Assembly (NCBI RefSeq): GCF_014199525.1
Contig: NZ_JACHNU010000007.1
Location: 186,001-250,000 of the forward strand
Direction of reading: 5' to 3'
Length of the DNA: 64,000 nucleotides
From: Conexibacter arvalis
Lineage (GTDB): Bacteria; Actinomycetota; Thermoleophilia; Solirubrobacterales; Solirubrobacteraceae
In this document: piece by piece, positions 18,893 through 29,888 of the stretch
Layout of the letters: each line of letters begins with the position of its first letter
Position numbering within the stretch: position 1 is the first letter of the stretch
Program-made: the position numbers and the translations under genes
The notes under the pieces: generated by a model
The model's input: the letters and a program-made list of their open reading frames with translations, nothing else
Databases searched by the model: none
Told to the model about the DNA's origin: nothing

Positions 18893-18965
18893 GCGGACGT
18901 AGCTCAGTTGGTAGAGCGTCGGCTTCCCAAGCCGAAGGTCGCGGGTTCGAGGCCCGTCGTCCGCT
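18893..18965 (+). tRNA. tRNA-Gly (anticodon CCC)
   Basis: A complete cloverleaf: acceptor GCGGACG (18893-18899) pairs with CGTCCGC (18958-18964), D-arm GCTC/GAGC, anticodon stem TCGGC/GCCGA with loop TTCCCAA (anticodon CCC at 18926-18928), T-arm with GGTTCGA, discriminator T. CCA is not encoded. It reads GGG. It borders the lower-GC accessory patch; tRNA-Gly genes are common integration sites. Confidence 0.96.
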
Positions 18966-19106: not shown

Positions 19107-22100
19107 GTGGCAGATATTGATCTGACATCTCCTTGGCCGGGCTTGCCGATATCGCGCCTTCTGCGATCGCCGAGCGTCGTGCCGCTGCTCGGCGCCGGCA
19201 TGAGCGTGGAGGCAGGTCTTCCTTTGGGCAAGGAACTCGCCGCTTGGATTCGCTGCCACGAGCTTGCCCGCGGGCTCGACTTCTCGTTACTCGGTGCCGC
19301 TTCGGAGGATCCGACCGCCGTCCTTGATGTCGTCGATGACCACCGCGCCGAGTCGGTCCCCGCCATCCTGGACGATCTGCGGGCCTGGCTGGCGAGTCTG
19401 TGCAGACAAGCCGAGGTGCCGGAGCCCCTCCGTCACCTGGCACATGTCCCCGGACGGCTTGTGCTGACGCTGAACTACGACGACCTGCTGGAGCGCGCGG
19501 CTGAGGAGGAAGGGCGACCCGTGCGCAGCGTGACCCGTGAGCAGCTGCCGCGCCTGATTGGGGCTGGAGCGCCGCTCGCCGAGGACCCCCTGCACGTTGT
19601 CCACCTTCATGGCTCTGTTCGATCTCCGGAACGGTTCGTGCTCGATGGAATCAGCTACGCGAAGGTCTCAGCTGACGAGGACCTTGCAGTGCTGTTCGGC
19701 GGACTCGCGTTTCAGCGACGGAGCGTCTGCATCCTTGGAACTCCTCTGGCCGAGCTGCACTTGGCAAGCCTGTTCCGGCGTTATCGCGGACCGCAGCGCC
19801 ACGTGATCGTGTGCGAGGAGCAAGAGGCCGAGCAGATTCGAAACAACAGCGCGCCTTCGCTTCTGCGCCAGATCGACGGGATCGTTCCTTGCAGCTTTCC
19901 CGTAGGTCGTTTCGGAGTGCTGGCGCCTTTCTGTGCAGAGCTTGTGGAACAGGGCCGGCAAGCGGAGTCGGAGACGGCGCAGGCAACGCGACCAGTTGCG
20001 CCGCCGGTGGATCGACTCTACGTCGCCCGGAAGCTGTTGCCGCTCGGGGACTCGGAGGACCCTCGAATCGACCTCGCTCTCGGACGCATCTCAGTGGTGG
20101 ACGAAGATGAAGTGGCGGCAGCCTCGCGGGCCTTGATCATCGACTCGCCGGGCGCAGGTAAGACGGAGTTGCTCCGACGGTATGCGGCGCGATCTGGCAC
20201 CGATGAGGACACCGTGTACGTGCGCCTTCGCGGCGTCCGAGCGCTCACCGGCTCGACGGAAGCTCTCCTGACCGAGTGGCTGAACGCCGCCGACAGGGAA
20301 TTCGGACTGGTGGAGCCGAGCGCCGTTGTGTCCGGGGCGGCCGCGGTGCATTTGCTGCTCGACGCGTTGGACGAACAGCCTCCGAGCGTGCGCCGAGCGG
20401 CCGCTCTCGCGATCGACCGGGTCGCCAGAGCGTTCCCGAACGTGCGGATCACCGTTACGAGCCGTCCTACGAGCGCGCTGGACGCCTTCGGCGGGGAATG
20501 GCTGCGTTTCAAGCTCGTCTTCGACGACGAATGGGCTCAGACGTTCTTCAGCAGGGCCGGCCGTGACCGAGCAGCGTTCGACGCCGTTATGGCGTCAGCG
20601 CGCTCGACCGTCGCGCCGCTGCTCTCGAGCCCCTTCTTCCTTCGACGGCTTGCCGACATGCCAGAGCCAGAGCTCAAAGTGGCTGTGGCGAGGAACAACG
20701 CGCTCGACCTCGTGCTCTCGCTCCTCGACAAAACCATTGTGGAAGACCCGAACCTCGCGAACGTCTCTACCGCGGTTGCTGCATGGATGACCGATGTGGC
20801 GCTGCTCATGCAGCTGGGCGGGCGGCGGACGATGCCACGGCAGGCACTGGAGCGGATCACCAGACGCTTCGATCTCGGCGAGGTCTCGGTGCTCACCGAT
20901 CAACTCGTGGGACGCGCGCTCCTTGAGGAGAGCTCGGACGAGTGGTCCTTCGGGCACCGCCTGTTTGCGGACGCACTTGTCGCCCAGAGCCTCGTTGACA
21001 GAATGCCGAGCGATTGGCTCGACATCATCGCTCCGGTAGTCCATAGCCGCTCGGCTGTCCGCGAGGACTGGGATGCCGCGATCGCGTTCCTTTGCAGTGC
21101 CTCGGCAGACTGGCGAGCAGCGATTGCGCCGCGCGATCCTGCCGTGTCGGCGCGGACGACACCTGTGGAGGCGGACCAGTCTGAGCGACGAGCGGCGGTA
21201 CAGACACTGTGGAGTCGCGCGCACGAGCGCCAGATCTGGCTGAACGAGCGTGACAACGCCCCCGATGATGCTGAGATTGTGGCCAAACTCGTGGGCGCCG
21301 GCGGGCTCGACGACGAACGTGGCGCAATACACGCGGCCTTCCACTCCAGCAGTCGCTACGACCGGCTCAACGCGCTCGACGTTCTCGTCCGCATCGCGCC
21401 GTCGGAGCGGATCGAGCTGATCTCGCATGTGCTGCGGGACGAGACGGACTCGACCTTGCGCCGCAACGGTGCAGCTTGGGCCGAACGCTTTGGCCTGACG
21501 GAACTCGCGGACCTGGTCATCGCTCGCGCCTCGGCGCCAGCGGACGAGTCGGAAGAGGCCGACATGACGTCGATCGGCTTGCGCCTGACGGCGAAGGCGG
21601 ACCGGCTTGCCGTCGGTCGCGAACTGCTCGCGCGCGGCAACACGCATATTCGCGACTACCTGATCTTCGAGGATCTGCCTGCAATCGAACACGTTCGGTG
21701 GATCCGCGACATCCGGACAATGCGAGAAGACCACACGATCTATGGCGACAGAGAGAAGCTGCTCGAACTGCTGGAATCGCTTCGAGACCTCTCCGAGGAC
21801 GACGTGCTGCTCGTTGCGGAGGCGCTGGCTCTGACCCACGCATCCGCGCCGGAGGCCGTCACGTGGATCGGTAGTCATAGGTCTGTGGCCGCTCGAGCAC
21901 TGGTCGAGGTGCTCGTCGGCGGGCACCGATGGATATCGATTCGCGAACTGCTCGTAGCAGCCGGGAGCGAGGCGCTCGAACAAGCGGGATGCAGCGAAGA
22001 AGCGCTCAGCTGGGTTCGCCGGCAGGAGGCATCTCTACCGACTCGAGGACGTCGCGTCACTCCGCCGAATTGGGGCGAGCCGGTAGCCGACGCTCCAACC

Positions 22101-23087
22101 CTCGCAGACGTCCTGGAGATGGATGATCCTGAGCGAATGGAGGTGCTCGTCGATCAGAGTCAGCGTCTCACGAGAGAACTCTCCAAGACCTCGCCGGCAG
22201 TACGTCGCCAGCTTGACGCAGCGATTGAGGAGCTGTGGGGACGACACGACATCCGTGACGCAGTTGTCGTCAATGACAGCGGCGCTTCCATATCGTTCTG
22301 GGCCAGCGTCGTCCTGACGTATGGGCACGCGCTGGAGCTCCAACTGACAGCGGAGCGCTGGGTCCAAGTTGCGTCGTGCGGGTGGCTGCTTCGCACGCAG
22401 ATCGGCTGGCTCGCAACGCAGGCGGATCAGGGCCGGTTCGACACCGCAGTCGACGGAGCGACCACCGCGCGGACGTTCGCAGATCTGTTCGCGATCGCGG
22501 CCGAGGCCGACGTCGATGCTGATCATCTCGTGGCGCGTGCGTCAGATGTCGCAAGCCTCGACGGGATTGAGGGTACGCGGCTCCTGCAGGCGTTGGCTGA
22601 CGCTCGAAGACCCGAGGCACTTCGGACGCTCCAAGCGAGGTTCCCTGATCGAGTGGATGAGGTGACTCCGCTGCTGGCAGCGGCCGGCGACATCGCCGCG
22701 CAGCGAGCGGCCTTGCGGGCGTTGATCGCTCGCTTCGAAAGAGGGGAGCAAGTCGATTCGCATGATGCGCTCTGGTTGGAAGCCGTCCGAGATCCCAGCC
22801 TGGTCGATGTCCTTACCGAGACGGTGATCGCGGGCCATCAGCGGGTCGCGCGGAACCATCCCTTCGATGCCGAGGCTACGGCGCTCGCGGCGCTCGAGCG
22901 CATTGGCGGTGGCGAAGCACTCGACTCGCTCGACCAGATCGTCGAGACCCGGCCATGGCCTGGCGCGCAGTGGCTCTATCACAACCGCGACCGTGTCCTG
23001 CAGCGAGAATTGACCGCGGCGGCAGCTGCGCCGGCGACTGATCGGCTTCACAGACTCGATCTCGCTACGGCGACGACAGACCGCTGA
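19107..23087 (+). CDS. SIR2-NACHT (STAND) protein, probable anti-phage NADase
   Basis: A single 1326-residue protein. Residues ~20-250 are a SIR2-like domain: VVPLLGAGMSVEAGLP (NAD loop), LTLNYDDLLERA (catalytic-type Asn123), VVHLHGSV (His168) and CILGTPLAELHLASLF. Residues ~320-560 are a NACHT-type NTPase: P-loop DSPGAGKT (346-353), Walker B LLLDALDE (Asp419), then VRITVTSRP. The remaining ~760 residues are helical and HEAT/TPR-like, the usual position of a sensor. SIR2 fused to a STAND NTPase is the architecture of bacterial NLR-like defence proteins (Avs/bNACHT), which deplete NAD when a phage component is recognised. Both catalytic SIR2 residues are present. GTG 19107 is the first start in the frame. 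GC and codon use (more TTG, GCT, CGA) are clearly foreign to the neighbours. Confidence 0.85.
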   Translation: MADIDLTSPWPGLPISRLLRSPSVVPLLGAGMSVEAGLPLGKELAAWIRCHELARGLDFSLLGAASEDPTAVLDVVDDHRAESVPAILDDLRAWLASLCRQAEVPEPLRHLAHVPGRLVLTLNYDDLLERAAEEEGRPVRSVTREQLPRLIGAGAPLAEDPLHVVHLHGSVRSPERFVLDGISYAKVSADEDLAVLFGGLAFQRRSVCILGTPLAELHLASLFRRYRGPQRHVIVCEEQEAEQIRNNSAPSLLRQIDGIVPCSFPVGRFGVLAPFCAELVEQGRQAESETAQATRPVAPPVDRLYVARKLLPLGDSEDPRIDLALGRISVVDEDEVAAASRALIIDSPGAGKTELLRRYAARSGTDEDTVYVRLRGVRALTGSTEALLTEWLNAADREFGLVEPSAVVSGAAAVHLLLDALDEQPPSVRRAAALAIDRVARAFPNVRITVTSRPTSALDAFGGEWLRFKLVFDDEWAQTFFSRAGRDRAAFDAVMASARSTVAPLLSSPFFLRRLADMPEPELKVAVARNNALDLVLSLLDKTIVEDPNLANVSTAVAAWMTDVALLMQLGGRRTMPRQALERITRRFDLGEVSVLTDQLVGRALLEESSDEWSFGHRLFADALVAQSLVDRMPSDWLDIIAPVVHSRSAVREDWDAAIAFLCSASADWRAAIAPRDPAVSARTTPVEADQSERRAAVQTLWSRAHERQIWLNERDNAPDDAEIVAKLVGAGGLDDERGAIHAAFHSSSRYDRLNALDVLVRIAPSERIELISHVLRDETDSTLRRNGAAWAERFGLTELADLVIARASAPADESEEADMTSIGLRLTAKADRLAVGRELLARGNTHIRDYLIFEDLPAIEHVRWIRDIRTMREDHTIYGDREKLLELLESLRDLSEDDVLLVAEALALTHASAPEAVTWIGSHRSVAARALVEVLVGGHRWISIRELLVAAGSEALEQAGCSEEALSWVRRQEASLPTRGRRVTPPNWGEPVADAPTLADVLEMDDPERMEVLVDQSQRLTRELSKTSPAVRRQLDAAIEELWGRHDIRDAVVVNDSGASISFWASVVLTYGHALELQLTAERWVQVASCGWLLRTQIGWLATQADQGRFDTAVDGATTARTFADLFAIAAEADVDADHLVARASDVASLDGIEGTRLLQALADARRPEALRTLQARFPDRVDEVTPLLAAAGDIAAQRAALRALIARFERGEQVDSHDALWLEAVRDPSLVDVLTETVIAGHQRVARNHPFDAEATALAALERIGGGEALDSLDQIVETRPWPGAQWLYHNRDRVLQRELTAAAAAPATDRLHRLDLATATTDR

Positions 23088-24583: not shown

Positions 24584-24979
24584 TCACTCGTCGAGCAGCC
24601 TGCGCAGCTCGGCGCGGCGTGCGTCGTCGAGCCGCTCGACCTGCTCGGCGAAGTGCGCGAGCGCGACGTCGCCGTAGGCGTCGAGCAGGCGGTCGACGTC
24701 ACCGGATGCGCGCCCGCGCATCCAGGTGTCGCGCTCGACCGCCGCGGCGTAGACGTCGCGGCGGCCCTCACGCTCGCGCGTGACGAAGCCCTTCTCCTCG
24801 AGCCGCCCAAGGACGGTCAGCACGGTGGTGTACGCGCGCTCGCGCTCGGCGGTCGCGTTGATCCCGTCGAGGATCTCGCGCACCGGCGCCGGGCCAGCAC
24901 GCCACACCTGTTCCATGATCTCGCGCTCCAGCTCGTGGAGCGGCGGCGGGGGCTGGTTTCGTCGCGCTCGCTTCGCCAT
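24584..24979 (-). CDS. BlaI/MecI/CopY-family repressor
   Basis: A 131-residue dimeric winged-helix repressor: LHELEREIMEQVWRAGPAPVREILDGIN, recognition helix YTTVLTVLGRLEEKGFVTRE, and a C-terminal dimerisation helix (VDRLLDAYGDVALAHFAEQ). BlaI proteins are inactivated by proteolysis signalled by an M56 membrane protease (BlaR); one is encoded at 27265. Its start lies four bases from an operator-like inverted repeat, and the same repeat recurs at four more promoters in the next 3.3 kb, so it probably represses this cluster and itself. Confidence 0.9.
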   Translation of the reverse strand: MAKRARRNQPPPPLHELEREIMEQVWRAGPAPVREILDGINATAERERAYTTVLTVLGRLEEKGFVTREREGRRDVYAAAVERDTWMRGRASGDVDRLLDAYGDVALAHFAEQVERLDDARRAELRRLLDE

Positions 24980-24982
24980 CTT

Positions 24983-25000
24983 CTACGCGTATAGTAGACC
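24983..25000. promoter_or_regulatory. BlaI operator A / divergent promoters of blaI and the CPVC membrane gene
   Basis: TCTAC (24982-24986) and GTAGA (24994-24998) are inverted. Rightward, TATAGT (24990-24995) is a fair -10 whose start point would fall at or next to the ATG at 25002, predicting a leaderless mRNA. Leftward, TACTAT overlaps the same bases and serves blaI. Confidence 0.55.
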
Positions 25001-25001
25001 G

Positions 25002-25469
25002 ATGCCCGCTGTTGTCGTCGTGGCGTCGCGAGCGCTCGCCGCCTGGTCACCCCGTCGTTGGCTCGCGGCTGCCCTGGCCGCGACGCTCGTCCTCCTCGCC
25101 CTGGCCGTGCCGACCGCGCTGATCGCCACGCCGTGGTTCGGGCGTGAGATCCCGCCGACGTGGTGGGCGTGGCCGGTGGCCGTGGCGACGGCGGCGATGT
25201 CCGGGCTGCTGCTGGCGACCTACGTCGACGTCGATCGCCGGATCGCTACTGCCGGTGTAGATGCCAAGCGCGCTGGGGTCGGCGGGCTGCTGTCGTTCTT
25301 CGCGGTGGGCTGCCCGGTCTGCAACAAGCTCGTGCTGGCCGCACTCGGCACCACCGGCGCACTGAACTGGTTCGCGCCGGTGCAGCCGCTGCTGGCGGTG
25401 GCCGCGTTGGCGCTCGTCTCGTGGGCGCTCGCGCGGCGACTCGCCGGCGAGGTGCGCTGCCGCCTCTGA
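25002..25469 (+). CDS. Membrane protein with conserved CPVC motif
   Basis: A 155-residue integral membrane protein with about four helices (LAAALAATLVLLALAVPTAL; WAWPVAVATAAMSGLLLATYV; LSFFAVGCPVCNKLVLAALG; LLAVAALALVSWALA). The cysteine pair GCPVC (Cys104/Cys107) lies at the start of the third helix, a placement suitable for thiol exchange with a redox partner. It is divergent from blaI across operator A and near DsbA, TlpA and CcdA genes, so an electron-relay or disulfide-handling role is inferred. No named family recognised. Confidence 0.7.
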   Translation: MPAVVVVASRALAAWSPRRWLAAALAATLVLLALAVPTALIATPWFGREIPPTWWAWPVAVATAAMSGLLLATYVDVDRRIATAGVDAKRAGVGGLLSFFAVGCPVCNKLVLAALGTTGALNWFAPVQPLLAVAALALVSWALARRLAGEVRCRL

Positions 25470-25474
25470 CCTAT

Positions 25475-25492
25475 CTACTACGCATGTAGGAG
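25475..25492 (+). promoter_or_regulatory. BlaI operator B upstream of the riboswitch and NlpC/P60 gene
   Basis: CTACTAC (25475-25481), four bases, GTAGGAG (25486-25492). It is the same element as operators C and E. It lies just before the c-di-AMP riboswitch, so initiation would be under BlaI control and elongation under riboswitch control. Confidence 0.6.
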
Positions 25493-25495
25493 AAG

Positions 25496-25650
25496 TGCTA
25501 CGGTTCGCGTGCCGAATCGCGACGCCGCATGGAAGGCGCGCGAGCGGGGGAACCGCCGGACCGCCTTGAGCGGTCCCGGGGCGAATTGCCGCGATCCGCG
25601 GCATAGCGCGATGGCGCGAGCCCGTCAGCTCACCTCGCAGGCGTACATGA
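25496..25650 (+). promoter_or_regulatory. c-di-AMP riboswitch (ydaO/yuaA class)
   Basis: The ~150-nt leader of the NlpC/P60 gene contains the ordered conserved blocks of this class: GCCGAATC near 25511, GCGGGGGAACCGCC near 25544, CGGGGCGAATT near 25577, GCGCGATGGCGCGAG near 25606 and CCCGTCAGCTCACCTCGCAG at 25621-25640. This riboswitch typically switches off peptidoglycan hydrolase and osmolyte genes when c-di-AMP is high, and in actinobacteria it often precedes NlpC/P60 or Rpf genes, as here. Confidence 0.88.
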
Positions 25651-25674
25651 CGTTCGAGTCAGAGGAGTCTCTCG

Positions 25675-26451
25675 ATGGTCCCTGAGAGCCCATCCATGCC
25701 GTTGCGCCGCGTCGCGCTGGTCGCCGGCATCGCCGCCGTGGCGCTCGCCCCGAACGCGCAGGCCGCGGGGCAGCGTCTCGTCGGCGGCGCGACGCCGAGT
25801 GTGGACGCACCTGCCGCGACCGGCGAGGGCGGCGATACGGCGGTCCCCGTGACGCGACTGCGGGGCGTCGTCTCCGGTCGCGCCGAGGTGCGCGAGCTGC
25901 AGCGCGCGCTGGGAGTCCGCGCCGACGGCCGCATCGGACCCAAGACCCGCGCGGCGCTGCGGCGCGCACAGCGCAAGGCCGGATTGCGGGCCGACGGCGT
26001 GCCGCGCCGTGCGACGCTCGCCAAGCTCGGGATCGTGACTCGCACCGTCCCGTCGGCGAGCGGGACGACGGCCGCGCCGGCCATCGGCGAGGAGCCGCCG
26101 CTCGTCACGGCCGCCCGCAGCCGCATCGGCAGCCCGTACGAATGGGGCTCCACCGGGCCCGACACGTTCGACTGCTCCGGCCTCGTGACCTGGTCGGCCG
26201 CGCAGAGCGGCATCGACGTCCCCCGCGTCAGCTTCGACCAGTACAAGGTCGGCCGACCGGTCGCTCGCAACAGGATTCAGGCGGGCGACCTCGTCTTCTT
26301 CGACACCGCCGGACCGGGCGCCTCCGACGTCGGGATCGCGACCGGCCCGCGGACCGTCATCTCGGCCACGACCAGTCGCGGCGTGGTCGAGCACGCGACC
26401 TTCGACCGCTACTGGGGCTCGCACTTCGTCGGCGCCCGCCGGCTCGGCTGA
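25675..26451 (+). CDS. Exported NlpC/P60 protein with peptidoglycan-binding domain
   Basis: A 258-residue secreted protein: signal peptide (~1-30, ending NAQAAG), a PG_binding_1 domain (~65-120; VRELQRALGVRADGRIGPKT), and an NlpC/P60 domain (~140-258) with the nucleophile in DTFDCSGLVTW (Cys167). Family members cleave peptide stems in the cell wall. The catalytic histidine, expected before VGI, is Asp218 here (ASDVGIATG), and the later HA is SA, so activity may be altered or lost. ATG 25675 follows GGAG at 25663. Controlled by operator B and a c-di-AMP riboswitch. Confidence 0.87.
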   Translation: MVPESPSMPLRRVALVAGIAAVALAPNAQAAGQRLVGGATPSVDAPAATGEGGDTAVPVTRLRGVVSGRAEVRELQRALGVRADGRIGPKTRAALRRAQRKAGLRADGVPRRATLAKLGIVTRTVPSASGTTAAPAIGEEPPLVTAARSRIGSPYEWGSTGPDTFDCSGLVTWSAAQSGIDVPRVSFDQYKVGRPVARNRIQAGDLVFFDTAGPGASDVGIATGPRTVISATTSRGVVEHATFDRYWGSHFVGARRLG

Positions 26452-26483
26452 GGGTCAACCGGCGCGCGCATGGGACGGGCGGC

Positions 26484-27065
26484 TCATCTCGGCGACCGGT
26501 CGAGCGGTCGCCCGACCGCGTGCTGCTCGATCGCCTCGAGCAGCTTCTCCTGTGTCGGGTAGGCGCCCTGCATGACGAAGATGCGGCGGCCGGTCGCATC
26601 GTAGAAGGCGGTCGTCGGCCACGAGCGCCCGCCGCCGATCGCCCGTGCCGCGTCGGCGTCGCGGTCGTAGACGTGGGCGAACGGCGTCGGCTGCGACCGC
26701 AGGAACGACGCGGCCGCGCCGACGCCGTCGCGCGCGTTGACGCCGAGGAACGCGACCCTGCCCTCCAGGTGCTTCGCGAGCCGGCGCAGGAACGGGAACT
26801 CGTAGCGGCAGGGCGGGCACCACGACGCCCACTGGTTGACGACGACCGGCAGTCCGCGCAGCGTCTTCAGCCGCCGCTTCAGCTCATCCTCGCCGCCGTC
26901 GACGAGGCGGCCCGCATGCTCGCTCGCGGCGGCGCGGGCCGCCGCGAGCTCGGCCGGCGACGCGGTGGAGGGTGAGGGCGAAGGGGTCTCGCCGCATGCC
27001 GCGAGCGTGAGCGCGGTCGCCGCGGAGACGGCGGCACAGGCGAGGCGAGGAGAGGAGATCGTCAT
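26484..27065 (-). CDS. TlpA-like thioredoxin lipoprotein
   Basis: A 193-residue lipoprotein (lipobox LAAC, Cys24) with a thioredoxin domain: VVVNQWASWCPPCRYEFPFL (Cys83/Cys86) and the cis-Pro loop GGRSWPTTAFYD. It probably reduces or isomerises extracytoplasmic disulfides, fed by the CcdA protein encoded at 29058. It reads left from operator C, whose minus strand carries TAGATT as a -10 about 12 bases from the ATG, so the mRNA has almost no leader. Confidence 0.9.
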   Translation of the reverse strand: MTISSPRLACAAVSAATALTLAACGETPSPSPSTASPAELAAARAAASEHAGRLVDGGEDELKRRLKTLRGLPVVVNQWASWCPPCRYEFPFLRRLAKHLEGRVAFLGVNARDGVGAAASFLRSQPTPFAHVYDRDADAARAIGGGRSWPTTAFYDATGRRIFVMQGAYPTQEKLLEAIEQHAVGRPLDRSPR

Positions 27066-27077
27066 GACGGCCCGAAT

Positions 27078-27095
27078 CTACTACGCTTGTAGGAG
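27078..27095. promoter_or_regulatory. BlaI operator C, divergent between the TlpA lipoprotein and a 43-residue membrane protein
   Basis: CTACTAC (27078-27084), GCTT, GTAGGAG (27089-27095). The rightward ATG at 27096 begins at the very next base, and the leftward ATG at 27065 is 12 bases away. Both mRNAs would start at or near their start codons, so one bound repressor would silence both. Confidence 0.6.
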
Positions 27096-27227
27096 ATGTC
27101 GGTTCTGAACCCCACTCGGCCTCGTCGACGCGACCGCGGCGCCTGGCTGCTCGATGCGGTCGCCGGTCTGGTCGGGGCGCTGCTGGCGCTCGTCGCGCTC
27201 GTGCTGATCGTGCAGTGGTGCTGCTGA
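27096..27227 (+). CDS. 43-residue single-pass membrane protein ending in a Cys-Cys pair
   Basis: ATG 27096 opens 43 codons to a TGA at 27225-27227. The product has a basic N-terminus (NPTRPRRRDRG), one long hydrophobic helix (residues ~17-40, AVAGLVGALLALVALVLIV) and the terminus QWCC. With the positive-inside rule the two cysteines would face outside, where the DsbA/TlpA/CcdA proteins of the cluster act. Evidence that it is real: its own BlaI operator ends at the base before the ATG, it fills the gap between two regulon members, and its composition is a clean membrane segment. No homologue recalled; function unknown. Confidence 0.65.
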   Translation: MSVLNPTRPRRRDRGAWLLDAVAGLVGALLALVALVLIVQWCC

Positions 27228-27246
27228 CCGCGCCGCTCCCGCGGAT

Positions 27247-27264
27247 CGACTATACGTGTAGGAG
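27247..27264 (+). promoter_or_regulatory. BlaI operator D / promoter of the M56 protease gene
   Basis: CGACTAT (27247-27253), ACGT, GTAGGAG (27258-27264), the most diverged left half of the five. TATACG (27251-27256) is a good -10; the start point would coincide with the ATG at 27265, again predicting a leaderless transcript. Confidence 0.5.
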
Positions 27265-28179
27265 ATGGCAGTCAAACGGTCGACACGTCCCGTCGCCGAC
27301 GGCCACCTGATCGTTCGCCTCCAGTGGGCGATCGCCGCTGCCGGCGGCGGCGCGTTCGTGCTCGCGGCCCTCGCGCCGCTGCTGCCGGCCTACTCGCAGC
27401 TGACGGCGCCGAACGAACTGCTCCACGCCTGCAGACGGCTGGCCGGCCACCCGAGCGCCACTCGGCTGCTGATGGTCGCCGCCACGACGATCGCCATGCT
27501 GGCCGTGATTCGGGGCGGAGCCGCACTGATGGCGACGCTGCGCGCGACCTGTCGGACGCGCGCGCTTCGTGGCGGCGCCGCGACGCTCCACGGCCTGCCC
27601 GTGACGATCGTGCCGACCGCCCGGGTCGTCGCCTTCACCGCCGGCTGGCTGCGGCCGCGCGTCTTCGTCTCCGAGGGCGCCATCGGCTGTCTCGCCCCCG
27701 CGCAGCTGGCGGCCGTGCTCGCGCACGAGGAGCACCATCGAGCGCGCCGGGACCCGCTGCGGCTGGCGCTGCGGCGGGTGCTCGCCGACGCGCTCTTCTT
27801 CGTCCCGCGGGTGCGCGACCTGCGCCGCCGCCACGACGACCTCGCCGAGATCGCCGCCGACTCGGCTGCCGCCCGTTCCGCGGGCGGCGACGTGCGACCC
27901 CTGGCCGGCGCGCTGCTCGCTTTCGACGGAGCTGCGCCCGCCGGCGCAGGGATCTCGCCGGCGCGTGTCGACCGCCTCCTCTCCTCGATGTCGCTCCCGC
28001 TCCCGCGGCTGAGCGACCTGTTCGCGTCTGCCGTCGTCGCCGCCGCGCTGCTGGCGTTGGCGCTCGTGGTGGCGGTCGGTCCGGGCGCCTCGGAGCCTGC
28101 GCTGCGCCCCTGTGCGGCGCTGCTCGCCGCGACCGCGGTCGCGGCGTGGGTCGGCTGGCGCGTACCGCGGCGCGGCTGA
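27265..28179 (+). CDS. BlaR1/MecR1-like M56 membrane metalloprotease
   Basis: A 304-residue zinc protease with about three or four membrane helices (VRLQWAIAAAGGGAFVLAAL; LLMVAATTIAMLAVI; FASAVVAAALLALALVVAV; CAALLAATAVAAWVGW). The active site is LAHEEHHRARRDPL (His154, Glu155, His158) with a downstream acidic ligand region DDLAEIAADSAA. BlaR relatives are cleaved on signal and trigger loss of BlaI; this one lacks a large external penicillin-binding domain, so the signal is not a bound beta-lactam in the usual manner. Likely de-repressor of the cluster. Confidence 0.88.
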   Translation: MAVKRSTRPVADGHLIVRLQWAIAAAGGGAFVLAALAPLLPAYSQLTAPNELLHACRRLAGHPSATRLLMVAATTIAMLAVIRGGAALMATLRATCRTRALRGGAATLHGLPVTIVPTARVVAFTAGWLRPRVFVSEGAIGCLAPAQLAAVLAHEEHHRARRDPLRLALRRVLADALFFVPRVRDLRRRHDDLAEIAADSAAARSAGGDVRPLAGALLAFDGAAPAGAGISPARVDRLLSSMSLPLPRLSDLFASAVVAAALLALALVVAVGPGASEPALRPCAALLAATAVAAWVGWRVPRRG

Positions 28180-28226
28180 GGCGCACCGCACCGATGCGCA
28201 GCGGCGTGGGTTGCCTGTTCACAGAA

Positions 28227-28245
28227 CTACTACGGACGTAGGAGA
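28227..28245 (+). promoter_or_regulatory. BlaI operator E / promoter of the dsbA-ccdA unit
   Basis: CTACTAC (28227-28233), GGAC, GTAGGAG (28238-28244), ending four bases before the ATG at 28249. The GGAG may double as a ribosome site here because the ATG is slightly further away than in C and D. Confidence 0.6.
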
Positions 28246-28248
28246 AGC

Positions 28249-29046
28249 ATGTCGAGGAAGCCCGCCCCCAGATCCGATGACCGCTCCGAGCGCGACGCCG
28301 CCGCGGCCGGTCTCGCCGATCGGCGCTCGATCGCGCTGGTGGCCGTGGTCGCGGCGATCGTCGTCGTGCTCGGGATCGTCGCGCTCACCCGCGACACCGG
28401 CGACGACGCGGCTGTCGTCGGGGCCGGTCAGACCGCGACCGACACCGCCGACGACAGCTCGACGGCCAGTGCCGCATACGGCCCGGTCACCGGCACCGAG
28501 CGGCGCATCGACGGCGACCCGCTCGCGCTCGGCAGGGTCGACGCGCCGGTGGTGATGGTCGAGTACGCCGACTACCGCTGCCCCTTCTGCGCCAAGTTCG
28601 CCACCGACACCCTGCCGGAGCTGACGAGACGCTACGTCGACACGGGCCTGCTGCGGATCGAGTGGCGCGACTTCCCGATCTTCGGCGAGGACTCCGAGCG
28701 GGCCTCGCGGGCCGGCCGCGCCGCGGCGGCGCAGGGGCGCTTCTGGCCGTTCTACAGGGAGCTGTTCGGTGCCGCGCCGCCATCCGGGCATCCGCCGATG
28801 CCGCTCGAGAAGCTCGAACGGCTCGCCCGCAGAGCCGGCGTGAAGGACCTCGCGCGCTTCCGTCGCGACGTCGCCGCAGACGAGACGCATGGCGCCGTCG
28901 AGAGCGACCTCGAACACGGACTGGCGCTCGGCGTCAACAGCACGCCCGCGTTCGTCATCAACGGCTTCCCGCTGCTCGGCGCCCAGCCGCTGGAGGCGTT
29001 CGTCGAGGTCATCGAACAGGCTCGCGGCGGCGCGCCCGGCAACTGA
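28249..29046 (+). CDS. DsbA-family membrane-anchored thiol oxidoreductase
   Basis: A 265-residue protein: cytoplasmic basic N-terminus, one membrane helix (IALVAVVAAIVVVLGIVAL), a Thr/Asp-rich linker and a thioredoxin_4/DsbA domain with YADYRCPFCAKF (Cys111/Cys114), the helical insertion, and the cis-Pro loop NSTPAFVING. Similar actinobacterial proteins oxidise or shuffle disulfides of exported proteins. Eleven bases separate its stop from the ccdA start; they form one unit under operator E. Confidence 0.93.
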   Translation: MSRKPAPRSDDRSERDAAAAGLADRRSIALVAVVAAIVVVLGIVALTRDTGDDAAVVGAGQTATDTADDSSTASAAYGPVTGTERRIDGDPLALGRVDAPVVMVEYADYRCPFCAKFATDTLPELTRRYVDTGLLRIEWRDFPIFGEDSERASRAGRAAAAQGRFWPFYRELFGAAPPSGHPPMPLEKLERLARRAGVKDLARFRRDVAADETHGAVESDLEHGLALGVNSTPAFVINGFPLLGAQPLEAFVEVIEQARGGAPGN

Positions 29047-29057
29047 ACGCGGCGCGG

Positions 29058-29888
29058 ATGCCTGCGGAGATCGGCTACGTCGGCGCCTTCCTCGGCGGAC
29101 TGCTCGCACTCGTCAGCCCCTGCTCGGCGATGCTGCTGCCCGCCTTCTTCGCCTACGCCTTCGAGCGCCCGGCGAAGCTGCTCGCGACGACCGGCGTCTT
29201 CTACCTCGGCCTGGCCGCGACGCTCGTCCCGATGGGCGCCGCCGCCTCGACCGTCGGCGCCGCGCTGACGACCCACCGCGACACCGTCGTGACGATCGGA
29301 GGCGCGACGCTGATCGCCTTCGGCGCAATGCAGATCGCCGGCATCGGCTTCGGCTCCCGACTCGCCCAACGCACCGCCGGCCGCCTCAGCCCGCAATCGG
29401 CGCTCTCGGTGCTGGCGCTCGGAGCCGTCTACGGACTCGCGGGCTTCTGCGCGGGCCCCATCCTCGGCAGCGTTCTCGCCGTCGCCGCGATCGGCGGCGA
29501 CCCGGTCTACGGCGGCGCGCTCCTGCTCGCCTACGCGCTCGGCATGGTCGTCCCGCTCGCCCTGCTCGCCCTGCTCTGGGACCGGCTGCAGCTCGGCCGG
29601 CGCCGCTGGCTGCGCGGCCGCGTGCTGCGGCTCGGCCCGCTGCGCACGCACACGACCTCGCTCGTCTCCGGCACCCTGTTCATCGGCATCGGGCTGCTCT
29701 TCCTGCTCACCGACGGCACCGGCACCATCGCCGGTCCCGTCGGCGTCGACGCCCAATTCGACGCACAGGTGTGGGCCCAGCGCGCCGGCGAACGCGCCGG
29801 CGACCTCACCGTCGTCGCGATCCTCGGCGCGCTTTTGCTCGCCGCGCTCGGGTTGAAGCGACTGCGACGAGCAAGACGAACCGACTGA
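29058..29888 (+). CDS. CcdA-like transmembrane electron carrier
   Basis: A 276-residue protein with about six helices. The first carries LALVSPCSAMLLPAFFAYAF and the fourth GLAGFCAGPILGSVLA, the paired cysteines of the CcdA/DsbD core that pass electrons from cytoplasmic thioredoxin across the membrane. It probably drives the DsbA, TlpA-lipoprotein and perhaps CPVC and CC proteins of the cluster. A C-terminal soluble segment and an extra helix near residue 250 extend the family core. Confidence 0.92.
   Translation: MPAEIGYVGAFLGGLLALVSPCSAMLLPAFFAYAFERPAKLLATTGVFYLGLAATLVPMGAAASTVGAALTTHRDTVVTIGGATLIAFGAMQIAGIGFGSRLAQRTAGRLSPQSALSVLALGAVYGLAGFCAGPILGSVLAVAAIGGDPVYGGALLLAYALGMVVPLALLALLWDRLQLGRRRWLRGRVLRLGPLRTHTTSLVSGTLFIGIGLLFLLTDGTGTIAGPVGVDAQFDAQVWAQRAGERAGDLTVVAILGALLLAALGLKRLRRARRTD

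Follow-up and report, generated by a model that had tools for sequence, protein, structure and literature searches.

Directly behind a BlaI-type operator in Conexibacter arvalis (GCF_014199525.1) lies a small open reading frame (ORF) that encodes a basic N-terminus, one strongly hydrophobic stretch and a C-terminal Trp-Cys-Cys. With about even confidence, we take this ORF to be a genuine, lineage-restricted gene of the BlaI regulon that specifies a probably leaderless single-pass membrane protein, speculatively a thiol substrate or accessory. It is located within a cluster that combines a BlaI repressor and a BlaR1-like protease with genes for thiol-redox proteins and cell-wall remodeling. All coordinates refer to the window, that is, the complete stretch of 64,000 nt analyzed here (contig NZ_JACHNU010000007.1, 186,001-250,000, forward strand), in which the cluster is arranged as follows:

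24584..24979, minus strand: blaI, repressor of the BlaI/CopY family (Penicillinase_R, 89.8 bits)
24980..24997, minus strand: op1, BlaI-type operator; adjoins the start of blaI, with the divergent 155-aa ORF 4 nt away
25002..25469, plus strand: 155-aa membrane protein with a GCPVCNK motif, without Pfam or NCBIfam match
25475..25492, plus strand: op2, BlaI-type operator; precedes the c-di-AMP riboswitch and the NlpC/P60 gene
25500..25657, plus strand: c-di-AMP riboswitch (RF00379, 56.9 bits)
25675..26451, plus strand: NlpC/P60 peptidoglycan hydrolase with peptidoglycan-binding domain
26484..27065, minus strand: tlpA, TlpA/ResA-like thioredoxin-fold protein, divergent from the small ORF
27078..27095, plus strand: op3, BlaI-type operator of 18 nt, CTACTACGCTTGTAGGAG; abuts the small ORF, 12 nt upstream of the divergent tlpA
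27096..27227, plus strand: small ORF, 43 aa, translation MSVLNPTRPRRRDRGAWLLDAVAGLVGALLALVALVLIVQWCC*, basic N-terminus, one helix, C-terminal Trp-Cys-Cys
27247..27264, plus strand: op4, BlaI-type operator; abuts the M56 start
27265..28179, plus strand: M56, BlaR1-like M56/M48 membrane metalloprotease with HEEHH, without sensor domain
28227..28244, plus strand: op5, BlaI-type operator; before dsbA
28249..29046, plus strand: dsbA, DsbA-like membrane-anchored thioredoxin-fold protein
29058..29888, plus strand: ccdA, transmembrane protein of the CcdA/DsbD type

The Small ORF and Its Operator

A first-pass annotation had described a 43-residue ORF at 27096-27227 with a basic N-terminus, a hydrophobic stretch and a QWCC end, and our translation agrees; the two cysteines are encoded by TGC TGC, followed directly by TGA. 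With 132 nt, the ORF exceeds the minimum length of common gene callers. Its start geometry is also as annotated: The ATG at 27096 is the first base after the operator at 27078-27095. This operator contains a TAG (27090-27092) that is in frame with the small ORF and two codons upstream of its ATG, so that the start is unambiguous and a longer one impossible. The assignment of the operator to BlaI is likewise supported, as op3 is of the BlaI type and blaI is encoded nearby; with this operator adjoining its start, the small ORF is by sequence a putative member of the BlaI regulon.

The operators themselves stand out clearly from the background. At up to three mismatches, the operator pattern has nine matches in the window versus a mean of 0.07 for shuffles. 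A motif derived from op1 to op5 yields, at up to one mismatch, five matches in the 5.2-Mb genome, all in this cluster, and one match for the reversed control; while the recovery of the five sites is given by construction, the informative part is that the genome holds no sixth. The commonest operator form is found in three of 201 genomes, including that of C. arvalis. Moreover, the asymmetric half GTAGRAG of op3 points toward the strand of the small ORF, as it does toward the served strand at the other four sites, among them those of blaI, M56 and dsbA, an orientation that had entered the fitted motif. In blaI, the small ORF and M56, the ATG is in each case the next base after the operator, and in dsbA it follows 4 nt further on; a GGAG at a workable distance from the start is present for dsbA only. 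This geometry suggests transcripts with little or no leader for blaI, the small ORF and M56. No consensus sigma-70 promoter was found in the region, so that the promoter is putative. A congeneric genome (L073) shows a similar layout: There, the ATG of a 208-aa ORF directly follows an operator-like palindrome, and a second such palindrome precedes a DsbA-like gene. Two further features of the cluster concern its left half: The operator at 25475-25492 stands directly before the c-di-AMP riboswitch, which places two controls on one cell-wall gene (NlpC/P60), and the 155-aa GCPVCNK membrane protein occurs in 16 of 201 genomes searched, its own included.

Based on this arrangement, we propose the following sequence of events. 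BlaI would cover the promoter of the small ORF, and its removal, by analogy via the M56 protease, would free transcription. The transcript would start at the ATG or within about two bases of it, and a 43-residue single-pass membrane protein would be made without a usable Shine-Dalgarno sequence. The structural model, which was predicted without an alignment, shows one helix spanning residues 14-42 (pLDDT 81.6), in line with the annotated single helix. Since the arginines are predicted to hold the N-terminus inside, the Cys-Cys end should come to lie at the outer membrane face, the same face as the cysteines of the M56 protease discussed below. There, the co-regulated DsbA, TlpA and CcdA would handle thiols; speculatively, the small protein would most likely act as their substrate or accessory and might possibly meet two conserved outside cysteines of the protease.

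Coding Potential and Conservation

The most serious objection is that the small ORF is no gene at all: op3 would then control the divergent tlpA only, and the ORF would be a frame that merely stays open between two operators in GC-rich DNA. We consider this unlikely. Op3 is indeed only 12 nt from the tlpA start, yet its orientation and the placement of the ATG are the same as for blaI and M56, and coincidence is improbable because so hydrophobic an ATG ORF is rare: ORFs of 30-90 aa that reach a KD19 of 2.5 or more start at 13 of 928,000 positions (464 kb of own DNA, both strands), a count that takes in the small ORF itself as well as real genes, and those with KD19 of at least 2.97 at one position. 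The small ORF has a KD19 of 2.97, which is matched by one of 1264 other ORFs of 30-100 aa outside called gene frames in the same 464 kb. Four of these 1264 reach at least 2.5, and those four resemble real small genes. Ends consisting of Cys-Cys are found in three of the 1264 non-gene ORFs and in none of 326 genes.

Codon usage, in contrast, leaves room for the objection. GC content by codon position is 0.79/0.51/0.84, but the synonymous-codon score is neutral with 0.31 bits, compared to a mean of 12.6 for 43-codon pieces of real genes, 7.9% of which score lower; per codon, 593 of the 1264 non-gene ORFs score as high. An initial codon test that assumed a background of uniform composition was rejected as undiscriminating, since 29 of 144 non-gene ORFs reached an equally high score. 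Because the synonymous codons give no support, the coding case rests on placement and hydrophobicity, and these tests were picked with the small ORF already in view. As the 43-aa sequence is from one genome, selection cannot be shown.

Conservation of the frame in relatives, a check put forward in the first-pass annotation, was not observed: tblastn with the 43-aa protein against three overlapping sets of 101, 399 and 316 genomes, that of C. arvalis among them, returned no convincing homologue. Its weak matches (best E 3.1e-4) fall in long frames, and the best other matches from the 399- and 316-genome searches sit inside frames of 327 and 577 residues. The further suggestion of Cys-Cys-ended short ORFs beside M56/BlaI genes elsewhere met the same outcome. 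A shape search for ORFs of 25-90 aa with KD19 of at least 2.2 and two cysteines within the last six residues, for which the small ORF served as positive control and was the sole match in the window, found no similar small ORF either at 129 other loci (684,569 bases) or in 400 kb of C. arvalis DNA; opposite tlpA, a hydrophobic small ORF was seen at none of 29 TlpA loci under the filter used. Relatives often carry blaI and M56 as one overlapping pair (e.g., L023, L032 and L047), which leaves no room there for the small ORF. Elsewhere, identity to the M56 protein is 41-43% in the best matches. With neither the cluster nor its operators conserved, the missing homologues are weak evidence against a gene. 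Six loci (L024, L028, L029, L039, L044 and L056) encode small single-helix proteins near BlaI-M56 pairs that have an ACP.GMG.MM.FM-like motif and, judged by eye, differ from the 43-aa ORF in sequence.

A second alternative accepts translation and assigns it a role in cis. In a leader peptide, the Trp-Cys-Cys codons beside the stop would couple the passage of ribosomes to charged Cys-tRNA and thereby tune read-through into, or translation of, M56. The position upstream of M56 and the adjacent pair of Cys codons that precedes the stop would fit such a leader, and passages of PMC4633059 and PMC9094748 provide precedent for cysteine-rich leaderless upstream ORFs. However, the 37 nt between the stop and the M56 start hold op4, which begins 19 nt after the stop, so that M56 has its own control point. 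Furthermore, the RNA structure is not beyond that of shuffles (z 1.23, 0.92, -0.25 and -0.58), a leader would not need a strongly hydrophobic helix, and there are only two Cys codons. As M56 has an operator of its own and no RNA structure stands out, we regard a cysteine leader as quite improbable.

The M56 Protease and the Thiol-Redox Setting

The protein encoded downstream of the small ORF is a BlaR1-like metalloprotease with HEEHH at residues 154-158 and a protease domain that is predicted to be flanked by membrane helices. In its model (pLDDT 85.4, pTM 0.81), this domain is surrounded by long hydrophobic helices (residues 13-36, 65-99, 249-271 and 280-299), and the top match among solved folds is BlaR1 (8exq) at a weak E of 0.021. 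The score is below the curated Pfam cut-off for M56 (20.2 versus 31 bits) and above that for M48 (30.7 versus 20.3 bits); all 30 members of an alignment of relatives match both families at E 0.001. This alignment comprises 30 of 32 rows, as L038, whose frame is still open where the stretch ends, and L041, whose M56 is identical to that of L042, were left out. The penicillin-binding sensor domain of BlaR1 is absent, the protein ending after the last of its long helices (about residue 299).

Two cysteines of this protease are widely retained: Counted over all 32 rows, Cys56, between helices 1 and 2, is present in 25 and Cys283, where the last helix begins, in 27; both occur together in 23, Cys283 alone in four, Cys56 alone in two and neither in three. 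Assuming a topology like that of BlaR1, both residues are predicted to be located on the outer face. That the Cys-Cys end of the small protein would share this face is a coincidence worth testing, and contact between the two proteins is speculation. The same applies to the suggestion of the first-pass annotation that the small protein is a redox sensor or substrate, possibly the trigger of the protease, which the two conserved cysteines merely render testable.

The thiol-redox setting claimed in the first-pass annotation is well founded, since genes for TlpA, DsbA and CcdA were identified in the cluster. Moreover, matches to the TlpA, DsbA or CcdA of the window lie within 1.5 kb at eight of 31 related M56 loci versus none of 26 control loci, the latter being places recruited by weak small-protein matches and comprising fewer bases (74,725 versus 115,321). 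Given these neighbors, we see next to no probability for a metal role, in which the Cys-Cys end would bind a soft metal at the membrane surface as part of a BlaI/CopY-type metal response: BlaI does match the CopY/TcrY model, yet its 43.5 bits fall short of the cut-off of 121.95 bits, and the related G107 cluster has apparent metal transporters beside BlaI-M56, CcdA and TlpA, whereas none was seen in the cluster at 24584-29888, where the co-regulated genes are those of thioredoxin-fold proteins and CcdA. The G107 cluster (L083, 3000-8400) consists of a BlaI-M56 pair followed by an apparent methyltransferase, CcdA, TlpA, which is 57% identical to the TlpA of the window, and the transporters; an operator-like palindrome is positioned between TlpA and a transporter, and an ATG comes right after GTAGG.

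A more far-reaching model, which we consider very unlikely, would treat the sensor-less M56/BlaI pair as an extracytoplasmic thiol-redox switch, with a regulatory disulfide between Cys56 and Cys283 and the Cys-Cys mini-protein exchanging thiols as a feedback partner. If true, it would explain the triggering of BlaR homologues that lack a sensor domain; for M. tuberculosis, passages of PMC5473688 describe the trigger of the sensor-less BlaR-type protease as unknown. The predicted outside cysteine pair, being conserved in a sensor-less M56 family, would, together with a BlaI-controlled Cys-Cys protein, make a redox trigger directly testable. If the small ORF is merely an ordinary small gene, it adds one more BlaI-controlled, probably leaderless small protein.

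Relation to Known Systems

With regard to its regulator, the cluster resembles BlaI-BlaR1 and the BlaI-BlaR system of M. tuberculosis (Rv1846c-Rv1845c) in the BlaI repressor, the BlaR1-like membrane metalloprotease and the palindromic TAC...GTA operators. It departs from both in its predicted targets, which are thiol-redox and cell-wall genes served by five operators in one cluster, in the separation of M56 from blaI, and in the small Cys-Cys ORF between two operators. The lack of a sensor domain is shared with mycobacterial BlaR, according to passages of PMC5473688.

The small ORF has 43 aa, which is inside the range of about 5-50 aa of leaderless small protein genes, and extends no annotated gene. 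Polycysteine attenuators reportedly have a stop that is closely coupled to the downstream start, whereas the small ORF is followed by the 37-nt gap with op4. They further differ in that the small ORF is not conserved in the relatives searched. As far as papers citing Canestrari et al. 2020 describe these attenuators, consecutive Cys codons, a presumed leaderless start and a position upstream of a gene are common to both, while the small ORF has only two Cys codons, at its very end, and a hydrophobic helix. According to passages of Shell et al. 2015 (PMC4633059), mycobacteria commonly make leaderless small proteins, and the small ORF compares well with those described there, being an ORF of <50 aa upstream of a gene in a GC-rich host with its start at the expected transcription start, a likeness that is one of geometry. 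It differs from them in its BlaI operator, its single helix and its Cys-Cys end and is uncoupled from the next start. The small ORF probably belongs to a known kind, that of small, likely leaderless membrane proteins; a thiol role of its product is speculative. Among the papers listed in literature searches, none links, by its title, BlaI/M56 with thioredoxin or BlaI with leaderless ORFs.

Outside the cluster, the window contains a candidate defense gene: a 1326-aa ORF (19107-23087) with a SIR2-like domain (PF13289, 50.4 bits) and weak PADLOC matches including ThsA, which adjoins a tRNA gene (18893-18965).
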